From the NCBI GenBank assembly GCA_027078475.1, contig JALWYH010000103.1, positions 1-43,851 of the forward strand: 43,851 nucleotides of DNA, read 5' to 3'. The notes under the pieces were generated by a model. It had not been told where the DNA came from and did no database searches. It was given only the letters and a program-made list of their open reading frames with translations. The translations under genes were made by a program, and so were the position numbers. This stretch comes from Thermoproteota archaeon (lineage in GTDB: Archaea > Korarchaeota > Korarchaeia > Korarchaeales > Korarchaeaceae). This document shows positions 33,120-42,126 of the stretch, one piece after another (the stretch's first letter is position 1; each line of letters starts with the position of its first letter).

Positions 33120-34460
33120 ATGAGTTCGAAAGCGTGGGGAGTAGTATCTATCGTCCTCTTTATCATAGGAATCCTGTTGGGCTATGCGGCAGCTCCCGGT
33201 AAGGTGAGCGTGTCCACCACCACCGTCACCGTGGGCGGTGCCGGTGCCCAGACCATCACCAAGACGGTCACCGTCACGGGCAAGGGGACCGCGGCGCCCG
33301 AGCAGAAGGAGTATGTGATTGGTCTAGCCATCGCGGTTACCGGAGGTTATGCAGTGGACGGCCCCAGGAGGAGGAATGCCGCGATCCTGGCCATAGAGGA
33401 GATAAATGAGATGTTGCAGAAGGCAGGATCTCCCGTAAGGCTCAAGTACATCCACGAGGACACCAAGACCTCGGCTGAGGGTGCCATAGCCGCATACGAG
33501 AAGTTGGCCTCCGCGGGCGTTCAGATGGTGGTGGGACCGCTCGCAACCAGTGAGTGCAAGGCCATACTGGACTATGCCAAGTCCCACCACATGACCGCCA
33601 TAAGTCCGAGCAGCACGGGAACCGCTGCTATGGTCAAGGACGACTACTGCTTCAGGGTACCGTCCCCTGATAAGTACCAGGGTCCGGCCCTAGCCAAGAT
33701 AATATGGGATCAGGGCATAAGGAAGCTCGTCATCATGGCTAGGAGCGACGATTACGGTAAGGGGCTCGCCGACCTGATAGAGGCCAACTTCAAGAAGCTG
33801 GGAGGACAGGTTGTCAAGATAATCTACGACTACACCCAGCCCGACCTCAGCGCTGATGTGGAGAGGGCCAGCTCCGCCGTGGCCAACTTCGGAGCCGATG
33901 CCCAGACCGGAGTCGTGATAATCGCCTTCGATGACGATGGAATAAAGATCTTGGAGGCCGCCAGGCTCGATCCGACCCTGCAGAAGGTCAGGTGGTTCGG
34001 GCCCGACTCCATGAAGAGGGCCACCTTCCTGCCGCCCAAGGCCAAGGAAGACATAGCCAAGTTCCTGCAGAGCGTCCACTTCATGGCCACGACCCCGGCC
34101 GTCGGATCCAAGGACAACCCGCTGGTGAAGGAGTTCATAGAGAAGTACACCAAGAAGTTCGGTGAGTCGCCAGAGGCCAGCACCTACGCCTTCTACGCCT
34201 ACGACGCGGCCTGGATAGCTGGTCTTACCGTGCTCGTGGCCCACAAGTACGATGGCAGGGTCTTCCAGAAGTTGGTGCCCTACATAGCCAAGCACTTCTA
34301 CGGAGTGACCGGATGGAAGCTCCTGGATGAATACGGAGATGCGGCGGTGCCGATCTACGATATCGTGGCCCCGAGGGTCGTGAACGGCAAGTGGACCTTC
34401 AAGACCATCGGCAAGTATGATGGTACTACCAAGGCGACCACGTTCTACGAGCAGCCCTGA
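33120..34460 (+). CDS. livK: Branched-chain-amino-acid-type ABC transporter, substrate-binding protein
   Basis: The 446-residue protein has an N-terminal hydrophobic segment (about 7-25) after MSSKAWG, a Thr/Val-rich linker (about 30-62) and a Leu/Ile/Val-binding-type periplasmic fold. The fold shows YVIGLAIAVTGGYAVDGPRRRNAAILAIEEIN, VQMVVGPLATSECKAI, AISPSSTGTAA, FRVPSPDKYQGPALAKI, VIMARSDDYGKGLADLI and YAFYAYDAAWIAG. There is no lipobox cysteine. The KA before the hydrophobic stretch would also suit a pilin-type (class III) signal. The ligand could be branched-chain amino acids or other amino acids, amides or urea. Confidence 0.9.
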   Translation: MSSKAWGVVSIVLFIIGILLGYAAAPGKVSVSTTTVTVGGAGAQTITKTVTVTGKGTAAPEQKEYVIGLAIAVTGGYAVDGPRRRNAAILAIEEINEMLQKAGSPVRLKYIHEDTKTSAEGAIAAYEKLASAGVQMVVGPLATSECKAILDYAKSHHMTAISPSSTGTAAMVKDDYCFRVPSPDKYQGPALAKIIWDQGIRKLVIMARSDDYGKGLADLIEANFKKLGGQVVKIIYDYTQPDLSADVERASSAVANFGADAQTGVVIIAFDDDGIKILEAARLDPTLQKVRWFGPDSMKRATFLPPKAKEDIAKFLQSVHFMATTPAVGSKDNPLVKEFIEKYTKKFGESPEASTYAFYAYDAAWIAGLTVLVAHKYDGRVFQKLVPYIAKHFYGVTGWKLLDEYGDAAVPIYDIVAPRVVNGKWTFKTIGKYDGTTKATTFYEQP

Positions 34461-34470
34461 ACCCTCCCCC

Positions 34471-34479
34471 TTCAATTTT
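34471..34479 (+). terminator. T-tract between the binding-protein and ATPase genes
   Basis: TTCAATTTTT lies 11-19 bases after the stop of the binding-protein gene and before the GGTGAT ribosome site of the next. Partial termination here would give more binding protein than transporter, as is usual for ABC importers. Confidence 0.3.
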
Positions 34480-34490
34480 TCGGTGATAAC

Positions 34491-35249
34491 ATGACCGCTA
34501 TCCTTCAGCTTAGAGATGTTGCTAAGTATTTTGGCGGAATAAGGGCGGTAGACGGCGTCAGTTTCGACCTGGAGGAGAGGCAGATAGTCGGGCTCATAGG
34601 GCCCAACGGCTCCGGCAAGACCACCCTGATCAACCTGATATCGGGAGTCTACAAGCCAGATAGGGGGAAGATCCTGTTCAGGGGAGAGGACATAACGGGC
34701 CTAGATCCATGGGAGATCTACCACAAGGGCATAGTCAGGAGCTTCCAAGTCCCCAGGCTCTTCGAGAAGATGCTCGTGGTGGAGAACGTGATGGTGGCCC
34801 ATAGGAATCAAAAGGGAGAGAACCCACTGATAGCCCCAATCCACAGTAAGTGGAGAGATCAGGAGGTGGAGTACGCCAGGAGATCCCTCCAGACCATTAG
34901 AGAATTCGGACTGTCGAGGGTGAGGAACAACTGGGCCACTGAGCTGAGCGGGGGCCAGATGAAGCTTGTAGAGATAACTAGGTCCATGATGTCCGAACCG
35001 AGGGTTCTCCTGCTGGATGAGCCCGCCGCGGGAGTGGCGCCTAAGCTGGCGAGGGAGATATTCGGCCACATAGTGAGGATCAGGGACGAGTACGGCCTCA
35101 CCTTCCTGATCATAGAGCACAGGCTCGACATACTCTTCGATTACGTGGAGAGGGTGCTGGTGATGAACTACGGTGAGCTGATATATGATGGGGATCCCGA
35201 GGGCGTGTACAAGGATCCGAGGGTCATAGACGCTTATCTGGGTGAGTGA
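34491..35249 (+). CDS. livG: Liv-type ABC transporter ATPase 1
   Basis: The 252-residue ATPase shows Walker A GPNGSGKTTLIN, signature ELSGGQMKLVE, Walker B VLLLDEPAAGV and the switch histidine in IIEHRLD. The insertion between Walker A and signature (EKMLVVENVMVAHRN onward) and the C-terminal VYKDPRVIDAYLGE are typical of LivG. It powers uptake with LivF. The ATG follows GGTGATAAC. Its TGA ends one base before the livF ATG. Confidence 0.93.
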   Translation: MTAILQLRDVAKYFGGIRAVDGVSFDLEERQIVGLIGPNGSGKTTLINLISGVYKPDRGKILFRGEDITGLDPWEIYHKGIVRSFQVPRLFEKMLVVENVMVAHRNQKGENPLIAPIHSKWRDQEVEYARRSLQTIREFGLSRVRNNWATELSGGQMKLVEITRSMMSEPRVLLLDEPAAGVAPKLAREIFGHIVRIRDEYGLTFLIIEHRLDILFDYVERVLVMNYGELIYDGDPEGVYKDPRVIDAYLGE

Positions 35250-35250
35250 T

Positions 35251-35970
35251 ATGGCTGACTACATTATGGAGACCAAGAACCTGACGGCCGGCTACGGCAA
35301 GGCCGTCATCATCCAGGATGTTAATTTTCAGGCCGAGAGAGAGAAAGTCACGGCCATAGTAGGACCCAACGGATCCGGCAAGTCGACCTTCCTCAAGACG
35401 CTCTTCGGGCTGACCAGGGTGTTCAATGGCAGTGTGGTCTTCGACGGAGAGGACATCACCAAGCTGGCACCTGAGGCCAGGGCTAGGAAGGGACTAGGAT
35501 TCGTCTTCCAAGTCAACAACGTCTTTCCAAACCTCACGGTTAGGGAGAACCTAGAGATGGGAGCCTATGCCAGGAATGACAAGGAGGAGATAAAGAAGGA
35601 TATGGAGGAGATACTTGACATATTCCCCATACTCAGGGAGAGGCAGAAGCAGAAGGCTGGCTCCCTGAGCGGTGGGGAGAGACAGATGCTCGCCATGGCT
35701 ATGGCCCTCATGGGCAGGCCCAAGCTCCTCCTGCTGGACGAGCCAGCCGCTGCCCTCGCGCCGAAGGTGGTGACCCAGATATTCATGAAGATCAGGGACA
35801 TAGTCAACTCGGGCGTCACGGTAATCTTGGTCGAGCAGCATGCCAAGAGAGCCCTGAGTTTCTGTGACATGGGTTACGTGTTCTCCAGTGGCAGGATCGT
35901 CATGAAGGGTCCTGGGAAGGACCTGCTAGCCGACGAGAAGTTTGTGGAGGCCTTCCTTGGGAAGAGGTGA
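35251..35970 (+). CDS. livF: Liv-type ABC transporter ATPase 2
   Basis: The 239-residue ATPase shows Walker A GPNGSGKSTFLK, signature SLSGGERQMLA, Walker B LLLLDEPAAAL, switch VEQHAKRALSF and the terminal LLADEKFVEAFLGKR typical of LivF. ATG 35251 is chosen because GGTGA, at the end of livG, sits five bases before it. An upstream GTG at 35242 is possible. Its stop codon lies within the livH ribosome site. Confidence 0.93.
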   Translation: MADYIMETKNLTAGYGKAVIIQDVNFQAEREKVTAIVGPNGSGKSTFLKTLFGLTRVFNGSVVFDGEDITKLAPEARARKGLGFVFQVNNVFPNLTVRENLEMGAYARNDKEEIKKDMEEILDIFPILRERQKQKAGSLSGGERQMLAMAMALMGRPKLLLLDEPAAALAPKVVTQIFMKIRDIVNSGVTVILVEQHAKRALSFCDMGYVFSSGRIVMKGPGKDLLADEKFVEAFLGKR

Positions 35971-35975
35971 TGTTT

Positions 35976-36905
35976 ATGGATCTGTCGATACCCCTCATGA
36001 ATTCCCTCACCTTGGGAAGCCTGTACACCCTCATGGCCCTAGGCCTCACCATGTCCTTTTCGGTGACCAAAATAGCCAACTTCGCCCACGCCGAGCTCGT
36101 GACCGTGGGAGGCTACGTCACAGCCCTCTTGGTCAACTGGATGGGATTCGGGCTGGGTGAGTCCCTCATCGCCGCCTTCATCGCGTCGGCCCTTCTCGCC
36201 GTTGCCATGGATGAGGGTGTCTTCAAACCGATGATAAAGAGGGGCTCGAAGCCGCTCTTCCTGCTGGTAGCCAGCATAGGTATAGGTCTGGTGGTCAGAT
36301 ACATCCTCTTTATATACGCCGATCTCAACGCCGTCATAACCCTGCAGGCCCAGACCAACGTCCAGATCATAGGCAGGTTCGGAAGAGCGGGGATAACCAC
36401 GATGCATCTGTGGATTTTCCCCATCACCATAGCCAGCGTTGTCCTACTGCACCTGATGTTCCACTACACAAAGCCCGGGAAGGCCCTCAGGGCCATGGCC
36501 GACAACGAGGATCTGGCCAGGGTTTCCGGTGTCAAGATATACACCCTGAGAAGGCTCATGTGGTTCATAGCAGGCGGCATAACCGGGGTCGCCGGTGGCC
36601 TGTGGGCCGCCTACTCAGTGATAACTCCAGAAATAGGATGGTACGCCCTGCTCAGGATATTCGCTGCTTCAATACTGGGTGGCCTGGTGAGCTTCTGGGG
36701 CACTATAGCTGGTGGCCTGATAGTGGGCTTCGCCGAGAACTTCGGGATAACGTTCATGAACACGTACTTCAATGTGAACACGGCCTACAGACCTCTGATC
36801 TCCTTCGTTATAATAGTGATTGTGCTCCTGATAAAGCCCACCGGATTCGCTGGCTTCGATCTCATGGAGTGGATAAAGGAGAGGAGGAAGAAGGGAGGTG
36901 AATGA
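35976..36905 (+). CDS. livH: Liv-type ABC transporter permease 1
   Basis: The 309-residue permease has about eight hydrophobic segments. The N-terminal LGSLYTLMALGLTMSFSVTKIANFAHAELVTVGGY is the hallmark LivH opening. The coupling (EAA) loop is GKALRAMADNEDLARVSGV, followed by a Gly-rich helix (ITGVAGGLWAAYSVITPEIG). It ends in a basic tail (KERRKKGGE). ATG 35976 lies six bases after GAGGTG (35964-35969); GTG 35967 and ATG 35970 are alternative starts. Confidence 0.92.
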   Translation: MDLSIPLMNSLTLGSLYTLMALGLTMSFSVTKIANFAHAELVTVGGYVTALLVNWMGFGLGESLIAAFIASALLAVAMDEGVFKPMIKRGSKPLFLLVASIGIGLVVRYILFIYADLNAVITLQAQTNVQIIGRFGRAGITTMHLWIFPITIASVVLLHLMFHYTKPGKALRAMADNEDLARVSGVKIYTLRRLMWFIAGGITGVAGGLWAAYSVITPEIGWYALLRIFAASILGGLVSFWGTIAGGLIVGFAENFGITFMNTYFNVNTAYRPLISFVIIVIVLLIKPTGFAGFDLMEWIKERRKKGGE

Positions 36906-36906
36906 A

Positions 36907-38040
36907 TTGCAGCTGGAATTTCTGGCCTCTTACATGCCCATCTTCACTTCCTTTGTGGTGCTCTTCGCCATTTACCTCATAGCGGCCCTCAGTCTCAACA
37001 TGGAATACGGCTACGGTGGCATACCTAACTTTGGGCATGTCTTCTTCATCTCCGTGGGCGCCTACACCGCGGGAGTACTGACAGCTAGGACGGTGGATTA
37101 CCTGGCGAGCATTAAAGCAGGATACTGCTCGGGACAGGCGTCTGTCATGAGGACCGCCTACCTCGCATCTCACCCGATCGAGGCCGTGGGACTGTTCGTT
37201 GCATCTCTCATTCTGGGAGCGATTCTAGGAGGGCTGTTTGGATATCTTGGCTCTTACCCAGCCCTGCGTCTCAAGGAGGACTTCCTGGCCATAACTCTAA
37301 TATTCATCGGCGACATGGGTAGGATAATCGCGAGGAATGAGGAGGGCATAGTTTGCGCACTCACCGGTCTGACGGGAATAGCTAATCCCCTGTCCTTCAT
37401 CAAGGACGTGAACACGAGGAGCATAGCATATGCCCTCATCGTGGTCGCCTTCGCCGTGCTCGCCTATGTCTATGTTCAGAAACTTGCCCAGTCACCCTTT
37501 GGCAGGCTCCTCAAGGCAGTAAGGGATGATGACCTGGCTGCCATGGCCCTAGGCAAGGTGGTGCCCAAGGTGAGAGGGGAGATAATGATCATAGGTAGCG
37601 CCCTGGCCGCCATAGCTGGGGTTCTCAGGACGTTCTACATCCAGGGAGTCGTTGCCGACGACTTCCAGCCCCTGATAACCTTCCTCATACTCACCATGGT
37701 GATCCTCGGCGGGATGGCTAACAATAAGGGTGTCATCCTCGGCACGCTGATAATGACTGCCCTCGATCAGTTCATATCCCCCTCATTCATGAGCATGCTC
37801 GGTATAACCGTGGAGTTCGACGTGACCTACATGAAGTACATCATAATAGGGTTGATCATAATACTGGTGCTCATGTTCAGGCCTCAGGGAGCGATACCCG
37901 AGGGTCCGGTGGAGACCCCGGCGCTTGAGCTATCTAGGTCTAGCGAGTGGGACGTGGAGGAGAAGCTGGAGATAGGTGTTGAGACCGGCTCTGGCGGGAG
38001 TGAGAAAAGAGAACAGGGAGACAATCAGCCAGCCGGGTAG
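36907..38040 (+). CDS. livM: Liv-type ABC transporter permease 2
   Basis: The 377-residue permease has nine or so hydrophobic segments. LSLNMEYGYGGIPNFGHVFFISVGAYTAG and YPALRLKEDFLAITLIFIGD are LivM features, and the EAA loop is GRLLKAVRDDDLAAMALGK. The hydrophilic C-terminal tail (about residues 333-377) is longer than usual. The TTG at 36907 is six bases after GGAGGTG; GTG 36898 is an alternative start. It is the last gene of the five-gene importer operon, and it meets a convergent gene at 38042. Confidence 0.9.
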   Translation: MQLEFLASYMPIFTSFVVLFAIYLIAALSLNMEYGYGGIPNFGHVFFISVGAYTAGVLTARTVDYLASIKAGYCSGQASVMRTAYLASHPIEAVGLFVASLILGAILGGLFGYLGSYPALRLKEDFLAITLIFIGDMGRIIARNEEGIVCALTGLTGIANPLSFIKDVNTRSIAYALIVVAFAVLAYVYVQKLAQSPFGRLLKAVRDDDLAAMALGKVVPKVRGEIMIIGSALAAIAGVLRTFYIQGVVADDFQPLITFLILTMVILGGMANNKGVILGTLIMTALDQFISPSFMSMLGITVEFDVTYMKYIIIGLIIILVLMFRPQGAIPEGPVETPALELSRSSEWDVEEKLEIGVETGSGGSEKREQGDNQPAG

Positions 38041-38041
38041 A

Positions 38042-38986
38042 TCACTCCCCTTTCCTTTTTCTAGCCGCCGTCCTCTTGATCAGAAAAAAAGCTAGGACCG
38101 CGACGGCAACACCCGCCAGTAGGGGCAGCTGGATGGTTCGCCAATTGGCAGACACACTGGGGATGGTCACCTCGGTGACGTAACCCACCTGCTCTATCCC
38201 TATTATGTCGGTCACGTAGTACACCGTGAACCTCGGCTCTCTCACGGTCACGTACACGGTGGAGTTCATGGGAAGATCATCCTCGGTCCTGCCAGAGATG
38301 ATCACCTTATAGCACGGGAAGAGACCGGCTGGCGTCCGCACGTTCTCTAAGGATATCACCCTCACCCTTGTGGAACCGAAGCTCTTCTCGTAGCCCTCCT
38401 TCAGCCTAAGGGAGGAGAGATCTATGTAGGGTTCCGACAGCCTCTCGGGAACGAATGGAAGTGCTCTAGAGAGGTTATCCCCTGTGAACCTGATTCTCTC
38501 CTTCCTCCCCCCGCTCTCCTTGACAACGATCCCCTGCTTCAGCAGGATCTCGTAGCTCTCATTCTTGCCATCCTCCAGTCTCATGACCGTCCGGTAGGGG
38601 AAGACCTCATTGTCCTCCCACCAGTAGGTTATGAGGACTCTCCTCACACTCAGGTTGAACTCTGGAGGTACCAATAGCATCTCGGAGAGCGGTCTACCCC
38701 TGTCATCGTAGCAGAACTCGGACGTGGAGTTGATCCCCCTGTAGAAGAGGCTGCCAGAGGCGTTGACCTCCAGGTGGACCCTGACCAGCTTGCATCTCCT
38801 CCCCTCAGAGGAAGACCAGCCCGTGACCTCGTAGGTCTTGTTCCCTATGTAGACACCGCTGAGCCTGTAGACCAGCTTGGATCCGATGGGAAGCTGTGAT
38901 ATAGCAACGGGTTGTGCCGTAGAGGAGAGCACGGGCAGGAGTAGAAGGGATAGAAGAGCCGCTGCGGCGACGATCCCCTTTTCCAT
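38042..38986 (-). CDS. Exported, C-terminally anchored protein of unknown function
   Basis: The 314-residue product has a signal peptide (about 1-24, ending STAQ). A beta-rich extracytoplasmic domain follows, with three cysteines (near 64, 92 and 224) and several NxS/T sites. One membrane helix (about 286-303) comes next, then a basic tail (KRTAARKRKGE). No family is recognised. It converges with livM, one base between the stops. A minus-strand TATA box near 39008-39017 predicts a leaderless start. Confidence 0.75.
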   Translation of the reverse strand: MEKGIVAAAALLSLLLLPVLSSTAQPVAISQLPIGSKLVYRLSGVYIGNKTYEVTGWSSSEGRRCKLVRVHLEVNASGSLFYRGINSTSEFCYDDRGRPLSEMLLVPPEFNLSVRRVLITYWWEDNEVFPYRTVMRLEDGKNESYEILLKQGIVVKESGGRKERIRFTGDNLSRALPFVPERLSEPYIDLSSLRLKEGYEKSFGSTRVRVISLENVRTPAGLFPCYKVIISGRTEDDLPMNSTVYVTVREPRFTVYYVTDIIGIEQVGYVTEVTIPSVSANWRTIQLPLLAGVAVAVLAFFLIKRTAARKRKGE

Positions 38987-39050: not shown

Positions 39051-40964
39051 TCAGTAGTAATACCAGATGCTCTCGTACTCCCCTATGTCCTCCCCCATCT
39101 CCTTGAGCCTCATGAGATAGTCGTAGATGGGCACATCGACGTAGGGCCAGGGATCAACAGGGGCTATTCCCTTCTCCCAAGGATGCCACACGTATATCCT
39201 GCTACCGCTCTCGGGCATTATAGCTATGAGCTCGCGGTCCTGCCAGGCCCTTATATGGTTCTTACCCAGCGCCGGGACGTTGAACACAGGCTCATCGGTC
39301 CTGTACTGTCCCGGGAGCAGTCTGGCCTCTTCCTTCCTTTCCTGGGCCAGCCTGGCCACGGGGACGAGATAATCCCTCTGCTCGAACTTGCCCTTTGGAT
39401 AGAAGTTGTAGTACGGATCTATCCCTATTATCTTGAGGGCTATTCTAGTGAGTACGTACTGGAACCTCCTGGATGTGAAGAAGTGGTAAACCTGCTGGTT
39501 GTACACGTAGATATCGTGGTCCCTCAGGGTCTTAACGGCCTGGGCCATGTACGGAGTGACCTCCTCGGCGCTCTCGACGTGGGTCACGAACATTATGTTC
39601 CTCTTGTTGGGCTCGATGAAGCTGCTCAGCATCTCAGCGTACTCATTGGTGATCCTCATAGGTACGGTGACCACTATCCTGCTGCCTATCCTTATGCTCT
39701 TGATGTGGTCTATCTCCGCCAGGCGGCTCAGTATGTACTCCATGTACTTATCGTTCAGGATAGCAGGATCGCCGCCGGTGAGGAGAACATCCATCATGGA
39801 CTCGTGGTTGGCGAACCACTCGATGGCCTTGTCTATGAGTGCCTTCGGCGGTATGCCTACGGGGCTGAAGGCCTCCTCTATCTCCCAGTTCCTCTGGCAG
39901 TAGACGCAGATCTGCGGACACGTGTCGGCCACCTTGAGTATGGCGATCATCGGGTATCTCCTGGTTACCAGCTCGAGCGGGGAGGTGTCGTGCTCCTTCA
40001 TGAAGTCGAATATATAGTTCCTGTCCTGCCTGTGCTTGATCATCTCCTCTAGATACCACCTGGGCGGGATGACCTGGGCCCTGACCTGAGGATCCCACTT
40101 CCTGTCGGCCCTCTCGAAGTCGAACAGGTGCAGGTAATATGGGGTTATGCCGAAGGGTATCCTGTTCTCTATGGCCATCCTCATGTTCTCCACGTCCTCC
40201 TCCGTCAGGGGCACCAGCTCCTTCAGCATGTCCACGTGCTCCAGCTTCTTGAACACGTGCTTGAAGTGCCATTTGTAGTCCATCCAGTCGTCCCTGGTTG
40301 CCCCGAAGTAGTCGAGGATCTTCTGGATGTTCTGCTCCCTCTTCTCTATCACCTTCGGATCGAGGCCGAAGGTGTACCTGCCGAAGTACTGCTTCACCAG
40401 CCTGGCCACCTCGTCTAGGTACTCGGACCTGAGTATGGCCCCCTCCCTTCCTCCTATCCTGAGGAACTCGTGGACTATCTTGGCCTTCTCCTCACCAAGA
40501 AGATCGTGAATCCAGCCCCTGGCGTAGTTGGAGTTGCCGTGTATCGCCTTGAACAGGTACTTGAACTCCATTATGAAGCCCATGCTCACCCTGTCTAGGA
40601 GCCGCTCACCCTCCTTTGCGAGCCTCCAGAGGTACTCGAGAGTGCTGAAAGTGGCTATCTTCTCATTCTCTGGGGAGATTATATTCCTGAAGTTCTTTAT
40701 GGCTTCCAAGGCGAGCCAGTAGTCTATCCTGTGCAGCTTTATCCGCCCGACCCTTAGCTCCCACTCTAGGGAAGCCAAGTAATCGTATAGCTTTTTCCTA
40801 GCCTCCTCGACGTCTCTGCTCTCCTCAAGCATCTTCCTGATCTGCTCTCCTTCCCTCCACATTTCATCAAGGGCCTTGGCTTTCTCCTCAAAAGATGCGT
40901 CCTTCCAGGGGATCTTCCCCAGTATATCAACGCCGGCCTCAACGATCGTCTCCAAGGATCTCAC
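39051..40964 (-). CDS. KamA-family radical SAM aminomutase, long form; possibly glutamate 2,3-aminomutase
   Basis: The 637-residue protein has a helical N-terminal region of about 260 residues and then a KamA-type radical SAM/PLP core. The 4Fe-4S cluster site is Cys349, Cys353 and Cys356 (CPQICVYC). VLLTGGDPAIL and SIRIGSRIVVTVPMRIT are family motifs, and Lys568 (NVPALGKN) matches the PLP lysine. Aligning by eye with lysine 2,3-aminomutase, the two aspartates that hold the lysine side chain correspond to Lys524 (FYPKGKF) and Asn562 (VFNVPALGK), the pair described for glutamate 2,3-aminomutase. A GTG start at 40964 or TTG at 40955 fits the TATA box at 40991-41000. Confidence 0.85.
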   Translation of the reverse strand: MRSLETIVEAGVDILGKIPWKDASFEEKAKALDEMWREGEQIRKMLEESRDVEEARKKLYDYLASLEWELRVGRIKLHRIDYWLALEAIKNFRNIISPENEKIATFSTLEYLWRLAKEGERLLDRVSMGFIMEFKYLFKAIHGNSNYARGWIHDLLGEEKAKIVHEFLRIGGREGAILRSEYLDEVARLVKQYFGRYTFGLDPKVIEKREQNIQKILDYFGATRDDWMDYKWHFKHVFKKLEHVDMLKELVPLTEEDVENMRMAIENRIPFGITPYYLHLFDFERADRKWDPQVRAQVIPPRWYLEEMIKHRQDRNYIFDFMKEHDTSPLELVTRRYPMIAILKVADTCPQICVYCQRNWEIEEAFSPVGIPPKALIDKAIEWFANHESMMDVLLTGGDPAILNDKYMEYILSRLAEIDHIKSIRIGSRIVVTVPMRITNEYAEMLSSFIEPNKRNIMFVTHVESAEEVTPYMAQAVKTLRDHDIYVYNQQVYHFFTSRRFQYVLTRIALKIIGIDPYYNFYPKGKFEQRDYLVPVARLAQERKEEARLLPGQYRTDEPVFNVPALGKNHIRAWQDRELIAIMPESGSRIYVWHPWEKGIAPVDPWPYVDVPIYDYLMRLKEMGEDIGEYESIWYYY

Positions 40965-41040: not shown

Positions 41041-42126
41041 TCATAAGTAGCCCAGCCATCCGCCCGATTCCACGCAGGGACCGACTATTGGTATGGGCTC
41101 GCCGCATTGAGGACATCTTCCATCCTCAGAAAGATTGCACTTTTCTATGGTAAAGCCATATCTCCTTATTAGGAGTGTCCCGCACTTGGGACAATAGGTG
41201 TTCTCGTCCGGATCGCCAGGGACATTACCTGAATAGACGTACTTTACCCCCTCCTCCCTCGCTATCCTTATGGCCCTCTTTATGGTCTCCACGGGAGTTG
41301 GAGGAAGGTTCTTCATCCTGAAATGAGGGTAGAACCGCGAGAAGTGAACCGGCGTGTCATCCCCGACCTCCTCGACGACCCATCTGGCGAATGACCTTAT
41401 CTCCTCCTCCCGATCATTGAGGGTGGGTATTATGAGGTAGGTTATCTCCACGTGCCTCCCTGCCCGCTTCAGGGCCAGGACCGTGTCCAGCACCGGCTTT
41501 AAGAAGGGGGCCTTGGTCACCTTCCTGTAGAACTCGTCGGTGAAGGCCTTGACGTCCACATTGGCGGCGTCTATCAGGGGTATGAGTCTCTTTCTGGCCT
41601 CTTCGCTCCAGTAACCGTTTGTGACGCTCAGAGTGGCTAGTCCACGTTCCCTGGCCAGCCTGGCCGTATCCACTACCCACTCCATGCTAACTATGGTCGG
41701 CTCGTTGTACGTGAAGGCTATGCTCGAAGCTCCCAGCTCGAGGGCCTCCCTGACAGCCTCCTCCGGTGTCAGATTTCTCAGGTAGCTGAAGCTCTCCGGA
41801 TCAGACTGGCTTATCACCCAGTTCTGGCAGTGCTCGCAGAACAGGTTGCAGCCCACCGTCCCTATACTGTAGGCGTAGCTCCCCGGCATGAAGTGGAAGA
41901 ACGGCTTCTTCTCTATGGGATCCATGGCGACGCTACTCACCCTGGAGTAGTTCACCTCGCAGAGGGTACCGTCCACATTTAGCTTGGTCCTGCAGAGGCC
42001 GTACATCCCGGGGGGTATGATGCACTTCCTGGGGCAAGCCAGGCACCTGACTCTGCCGTCCCCCAGTGGCTGCTGCAGCTCGGCCACCGCGCGATGCGGG
42101 TTACCATCAGGACATGCCCTAGCCAT
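41041..42126 (-). CDS. amrS: AmmeMemoRadiSam system radical SAM enzyme
   Basis: The 361-residue enzyme has an N-terminal cysteine set (Cys28, Cys31, Cys35 and Cys45; CLACPRKCIIPPGMYGLCRTK). A conserved VDPIEKKPFFHFMPGSYAYSIG-like stretch follows, with SAM cluster cysteines 93, 97 and 100 (GCNLFCEHCQNW). A C-terminal zinc-ribbon-like part (YCPKCGTLL and RCPQCGEP) ends the protein. This is the family found with AMMECR1 and MEMO1 domains across archaea and bacteria, whose reaction is still poorly defined. Neither partner gene is in this window. The ATG at 42126 is predicted leaderless. Confidence 0.92.
   Translation of the reverse strand: MARACPDGNPHRAVAELQQPLGDGRVRCLACPRKCIIPPGMYGLCRTKLNVDGTLCEVNYSRVSSVAMDPIEKKPFFHFMPGSYAYSIGTVGCNLFCEHCQNWVISQSDPESFSYLRNLTPEEAVREALELGASSIAFTYNEPTIVSMEWVVDTARLARERGLATLSVTNGYWSEEARKRLIPLIDAANVDVKAFTDEFYRKVTKAPFLKPVLDTVLALKRAGRHVEITYLIIPTLNDREEEIRSFARWVVEEVGDDTPVHFSRFYPHFRMKNLPPTPVETIKRAIRIAREEGVKYVYSGNVPGDPDENTYCPKCGTLLIRRYGFTIEKCNLSEDGRCPQCGEPIPIVGPCVESGGWLGYL

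Follow-up and report, generated by a model that had tools for sequence, protein, structure and literature searches.

An N-terminally extended KamA-family protein from a Korarchaeal genome as a probable archaeal glutamate 2,3-aminomutase, encoded beside an amino-acid importer

The window, a stretch of 43,851 nucleotides from a Korarchaeal genome (assembly GCA_027078475.1, contig JALWYH010000103.1), carries the only copy of kamA in that genome, and the question raised by this locus is which amino acid the encoded radical SAM protein rearranges. The gene is a single open frame of the minus strand with a GTG start and 637 codons for amino acids, and its span, as given by a sequence-only reading, was borne out exactly. 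We consider it probable that the protein is an archaeal glutamate 2,3-aminomutase of a long, N-terminally extended type, which would be fed by an importer and whose product is perhaps a compatible solute. The features of the gene, numbered against lysine 2,3-aminomutase (LAM) where indicated, are the following.

39051-40964, minus strand: kamA, long KamA-family radical SAM/PLP aminomutase of 637 residues, predicted glutamate 2,3-aminomutase
40311-40964, minus strand: N-terminal extension, residues 1-218, ahead of the LAM-aligned region (the hhalign match to LAM starts at 219-220)
39897-39920, minus strand: radical SAM CxxxCxxC motif (C349, C353, C356), then Q357-R358; invariant in 56 homologs
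39393-39395, minus strand: Lys524, at the LAM Asp293 site and in the Lys column of the glutamate model (profile position 330)
39279-39281, minus strand: Asn562, best placed at the LAM Asp330 site, with a one-residue gap required; invariant in 56 homologs
39261-39263, minus strand: Lys568, presumed PLP Schiff-base lysine in a GK motif, LAM Lys337
39054-39068, minus strand: C-terminal IWYYY tail (IWYY invariant in homologs, last residue Y or F)

HMM scoring placed the protein in the KamA family of radical SAM proteins, TIGR00238 (334.4 bits, cutoff 199.2) being the sole model above its cutoff. Among the substrate-specific NCBIfam models, the best score was that of glutamate 2,3-aminomutase (192.6 bits), followed by LAM (166) and Arg-AM (143). 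The first of these, the clostridial equivalog TIGR04368, has a cutoff of 650 bits and the LAM model, TIGR03820, one of 525, so that the protein lies below both. The homologs from Methanococcus (275 bits) and M. thermolithotrophicus (259) are also below the TIGR04368 cutoff, and for them too the glutamate model is the best of the substrate-specific set. The long-KamA family is therefore missed by annotation, since its members are labelled only “KamA family” and fall under the TIGR04368 cutoff. The nearest solved structure is that of a lysine 2,3-aminomutase (PDB 2a5h, E=1e-36); an AlphaFold2 model of the window protein computed with six Korarchaeal sequences reached a pLDDT of 39.6 and was discarded.

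The protein shares with AblA and PDB 2a5h the radical SAM core, the CxxxCxxC motif, the equivalents of Arg134 (R358 in the alignment) and Lys337, and about 30% identity. The cluster at C349, C353 and C356 and the PLP lysine K568 had been noticed before and are confirmed here; the GK motif of K568 recurs in almost every KamA enzyme compared. Among 56 distinct homologs from archaea, there is no variation in the cysteines, R358, F561, N562 or K568, and position 524 holds K in 54 proteins and Q in the other 2. The differences from AblA and 2a5h lie in a Lys in place of Asp293, most likely an Asn in place of Asp330, and the long N-terminus. Profile–profile alignment (hhalign) and MAFFT both put K524 on Asp293 without gaps, in agreement with the earlier alignment by eye. 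The placing of Asn562 stood in part: the residue is present and invariant, but it falls on Asp330 only with a one-residue deletion in the GGGG loop (N-V-P set on the D-A-P anchor), whereas a strictly gapless register counted from the PLP lysine brings F561 to that site. The spacing from the Asp330 site to the PLP lysine is seven residues in LAM, six in the window protein and five in several other KamA enzymes, and the hhalign alignment with LAM is ambiguous in the C-terminal part. Because of the one-residue gap, N562 at the Asp330 site is likely but short of proven.

No bacterial glutamate 2,3-aminomutase was found in plasmids, and among 394 genomes of the Methanosarcina/Archaeoglobus phylum none scored above the cutoff; mutants scored in silico against the HMMs stood in for such a sequence. 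In a Methanococcus-family lysine 2,3-aminomutase, the score of the glutamate model rose by 2.7 bits with D293K and by 2.9 bits with D330N, the other exchanges giving +0.5 (D293N) and −0.4 (D330K). The LAM model dropped for every LAM mutant scored, and most other models dropped with D293K and D330N. In the window protein, K524D cost the glutamate model 1.5 bits, whereas the scores of the LAM, Arg-AM and EpmB models went up; the match of the glutamate model to this protein stops exactly at K524, its position 330. These scores, together with the end of the match, point to Lys at the Asp293 site as the glutamate-type residue, and the preference of the glutamate model for Lys and Asn at the two columns upholds the earlier statement that this pair marks glutamate enzymes. 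The Lys, and probably the Asn, are thus shared with the Clostridioides difficile enzyme behind TIGR04368, from which the window protein differs by roughly 150 or more extra N-terminal residues and by the loop before the PLP lysine.

It is extremely improbable that the protein is instead a lysine 2,3-aminomutase of the AblA kind, a reading suggested by the common fold and family: Lys replaces Asp293 and the Asp330 site has no Asp, no acetyltransferase gene lies next to kamA, and the genomes of M. thermolithotrophicus and Methanococcus hold a separate AblA-like gene alongside the long KamA. Nor is another acidic or polar amino acid (aspartate, glutamine or 2-aminoadipate), with K524 on a different carboxylate, a likely substrate. 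Several alternative residues occur at both sites across KamA enzymes, and the subclades of the long-KamA family have diverged to less than 50% identity, both of which leave some room for it; the Lys/Asn pair is nevertheless that of the glutamate model, and the long KamA is found in known accumulators of beta-glutamate.

The C-terminal IWYY(Y/F), invariant in the 56 archaeal homologs, is absent from lysine 2,3-aminomutases. The Gln at position 524 is found in two long KamAs (L122:539-2344, minus strand, and L123:812-2614, plus strand), both adjoining a Na+/H+ exchanger, and these two possibly act on a different substrate.

The N-terminus had been described as an added domain of 260 residues. 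An extension does exist, but it covers about 215 residues beyond LAM, is present in all orthologs and has conserved columns, so that it belongs to the whole long-KamA family and is not peculiar to the window protein. In the methanogen orthologs its final portion aligns with the beginning of the glutamate-aminomutase model. Homologs of about 700 residues on Bacteroidales “plasmid” contigs (L054:3599-5713, L158 and L159) contain Lys524 and N-x-P-x-x-G-K and show a remote N-terminal match (hhalign probability 96%); as judged by sequence, they would represent a bacterial offshoot of this type of enzyme.

The long KamA with its whole N-terminus was found in 39 of the 394 archaeal genomes sampled, although two of the 39 hold it only as contig-end fragments. 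Its carriers include 7 of 16 genomes of the same genus, Thermococcaceae, Methanocaldococcus, Methanococcaceae and Geoglobus, besides others. When lysine, arginine and EF-P aminomutases were included as neighbours in a tree, these proteins formed one clade (support 100/100, branch 1.78), which joins the window protein with Korarchaeia, Thermococcus, Geoglobus, Methanocaldococcus, Methanotorris, Methanothermococcus and Methanococcus. Several members come from genomes that we take to be those of M. jannaschii (G338), Methanotorris igneus (G478), M. vannielii (G448), M. maripaludis C5 (G386), Thermococcus barophilus MP (G204) and Geoglobus acetivorans (G312). Another, G871, is Methanothermococcus thermolithotrophicus, its glutamine synthetase being 100% identical over 334 residues to PDB 8OOL. 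Identity to the window protein is 54% for the M. jannaschii form (presumably MJ0634, assigned to TIGR00238), an ortholog that differs only by sequence divergence and context, 50% for that of M. thermolithotrophicus, and 46–48% for the Methanococcus copies, which have a shorter N-terminus. One Methanococcus genome (G386) has two long KamA copies, L114 and L115, besides AblA.

The enzyme studied by Tunckanat and colleagues, MmarC7_1783, is reportedly a KamA-type radical SAM protein with an N-terminal extension of about 160 residues. It is said to have been chosen for its glutamate-type substrate-site residues and confirmed by expression in a methanogen, in which beta-glutamate was detected. These features fit the 594-residue Methanococcus proteins of the clade, which indicates that the earlier idea was sound in kind but had already appeared in print for related archaea; the window protein shares about 48% identity with the nearest protein that may have been studied experimentally. 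The reference list of PMC10702137 includes the corresponding title on glutamate 2,3-aminomutase in methanogenic archaea (Tunckanat et al. 2022, Biochemistry 61:1077). With the present clade, the archaeal glutamate 2,3-aminomutase family reaches beyond methanogens into Korarchaeia, Thermococcales and Archaeoglobales.

The fold family, motif residues, conservation, clade and transporter linkage were computed, and from them we infer the substrate, the roles of the residues and the direction of the reaction. In the proposed mechanism, a [4Fe-4S] cluster on C349, C353 and C356 would split SAM to give the 5'-deoxyadenosyl radical, and glutamate would be bound as a Schiff base to the PLP that rests on K568. 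R358 would contact the alpha-carboxylate, and K524, with N562 assisting, would hold the gamma-carboxylate. The shift of the amino group from C2 to C3 would then yield beta-glutamate (3-aminoglutarate), which may serve as a compatible solute. The substrate in the cell is probably glutamate or beta-glutamate delivered by the amino-acid importer linked to the gene. The surroundings of kamA in the window are these.

33120-38040, plus strand: amino-acid (Liv/HAAT-type) ABC importer operon of five genes
33120-34460, plus strand: importer binding protein (Pfam PF13458)
34491-35249 and 35242-35970, plus strand: importer ATPases
35967-36905 and 36898-38040, plus strand: importer permeases
38042-38986, minus strand: hypothetical protein of 314 residues, signal-like at its N-terminal end and with a hydrophobic segment at its C-terminal end; it lies downstream of kamA at a distance of 64 bp
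41041-42126, minus strand: AmrS-like radical SAM protein, upstream of kamA

Unlike that of the methanogen enzyme, the gene thus adjoins an amino-acid ABC importer, and its host is probably a heterotroph and not a methanogen. In a set of 29 genomes, an ortholog of the ABC binding protein and kamA occur together in nine, and the binding protein is found in none of the other 20 (threshold E 1e-60, with unrelated distant matches in other genomes, which fall below it, left uncounted). One of these 20, Thermococcus G033, belongs to another phylum and does have kamA, which there goes with a TRAP importer; inside the Korarchaeal phylum the pairing has no exception. The importer genes and kamA run convergently in the window but divergently in G017, and in G002 the binding protein is on a different contig from kamA. 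Shared ancestry accounts for part of this co-occurrence, as six of the nine genomes are close relatives.

Of the 29 genomes, 26 have the AmrS-like neighbour, which served as a control; being near-universal, it was rejected as an operon partner and probably has no functional tie to kamA. Its counterpart in what we take to be Korarchaeum cryptofilum (G009:C1:930842-931918) has one in-frame TGA, which may mean a broken gene or recoding. The 314-residue hypothetical protein had no Pfam match.

In the Thermococcaceae, a TAXI-type binding protein (79–100% alike) is encoded directly downstream of the aminomutase in 18 genomes, followed by DUF1850 and then a fused TRAP permease in the ten loci examined; 56 other genomes hold just a more distant relative, mostly at 51–60%. 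The Thermococcus binding protein matches 1us4, described as “putative GluR0 ligand binding core”. The aminomutase family is linked to two unrelated amino-acid importers in feeders on organic matter, a connection that is new here. At other archaeal long-KamA loci the neighbour is a Na+/H+ exchanger (three genomes) or, elsewhere, TrkH or a Na+/Ca2+ exchanger.

M. thermolithotrophicus (G871), G338 and G478 all fall in the clade, and the presumed T. barophilus genome G204 also carries kamA. Beta-glutamate is reported for M. jannaschii, M. igneus and M. thermolithotrophicus (PMC6958431). Its presence in three species whose genomes fall in the long-KamA clade was counted in favor of the glutamate aminomutase. 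For T. barophilus under salt and heat stress, the NMR results cited from PMC4932500 name only mannosylglycerate, aspartate and glutamate, with no beta-glutamate. As G204 carries kamA, the enzyme of heterotrophs may not serve osmolyte storage. Of the earlier proposal that the protein makes beta-glutamate as a compatible solute, the assignment as a glutamate 2,3-aminomutase is well supported by the site residues, the mutant scoring, the clade and the 2022 methanogen enzyme; the solute role, which may or may not apply in this host, draws no support from the T. barophilus spectra.

The same catalysis could also run the other way, the Korarchaeum and Thermococcus enzymes reconverting imported beta-glutamate, released by methanogens that share their vents, into L-glutamate to grow on. 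We regard such scavenging as possible, if on balance doubtful: dedicated importer partners in both groups and the lack of beta-glutamate in salt-stressed T. barophilus speak for it, while the transporters are of only putative substrate and the Na+/H+ exchangers adjoining kamA in other archaea suggest salt physiology. The wider picture of an import-and-isomerise module of heterotrophs, in which an ABC or TAXI-TRAP importer and an aminomutase interconverting beta-glutamate and glutamate would feed on the methanogen osmolyte instead of storing it, seems rather unlikely.

Assignment of the family as glutamate 2,3-aminomutases also sharpens an old conflict. Roberts 2005 (PMC1224877) states that NMR work excluded a glutamate aminomutase as the origin of the beta-glutamate of methanogens, and proposes a CoA route via MJ0800 and MJ0400. 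The genome of M. thermolithotrophicus nevertheless encodes a likely one.

Two halophilic methanogens have a second KamA of 358 residues (L020:1480-2556 and L021:1471-2547, both on the plus strand), in which Glu occupies the LAM Asp293 site and the Asp330 site lacks an Asp; these proteins are sister to arginine 2,3-aminomutases. Their genomes are presumably those of Methanohalophilus mahii and Methanosalsum zhilinae, and this shorter enzyme is a candidate for the one behind the beta-glutamate and beta-glutamine of Methanohalophilus.
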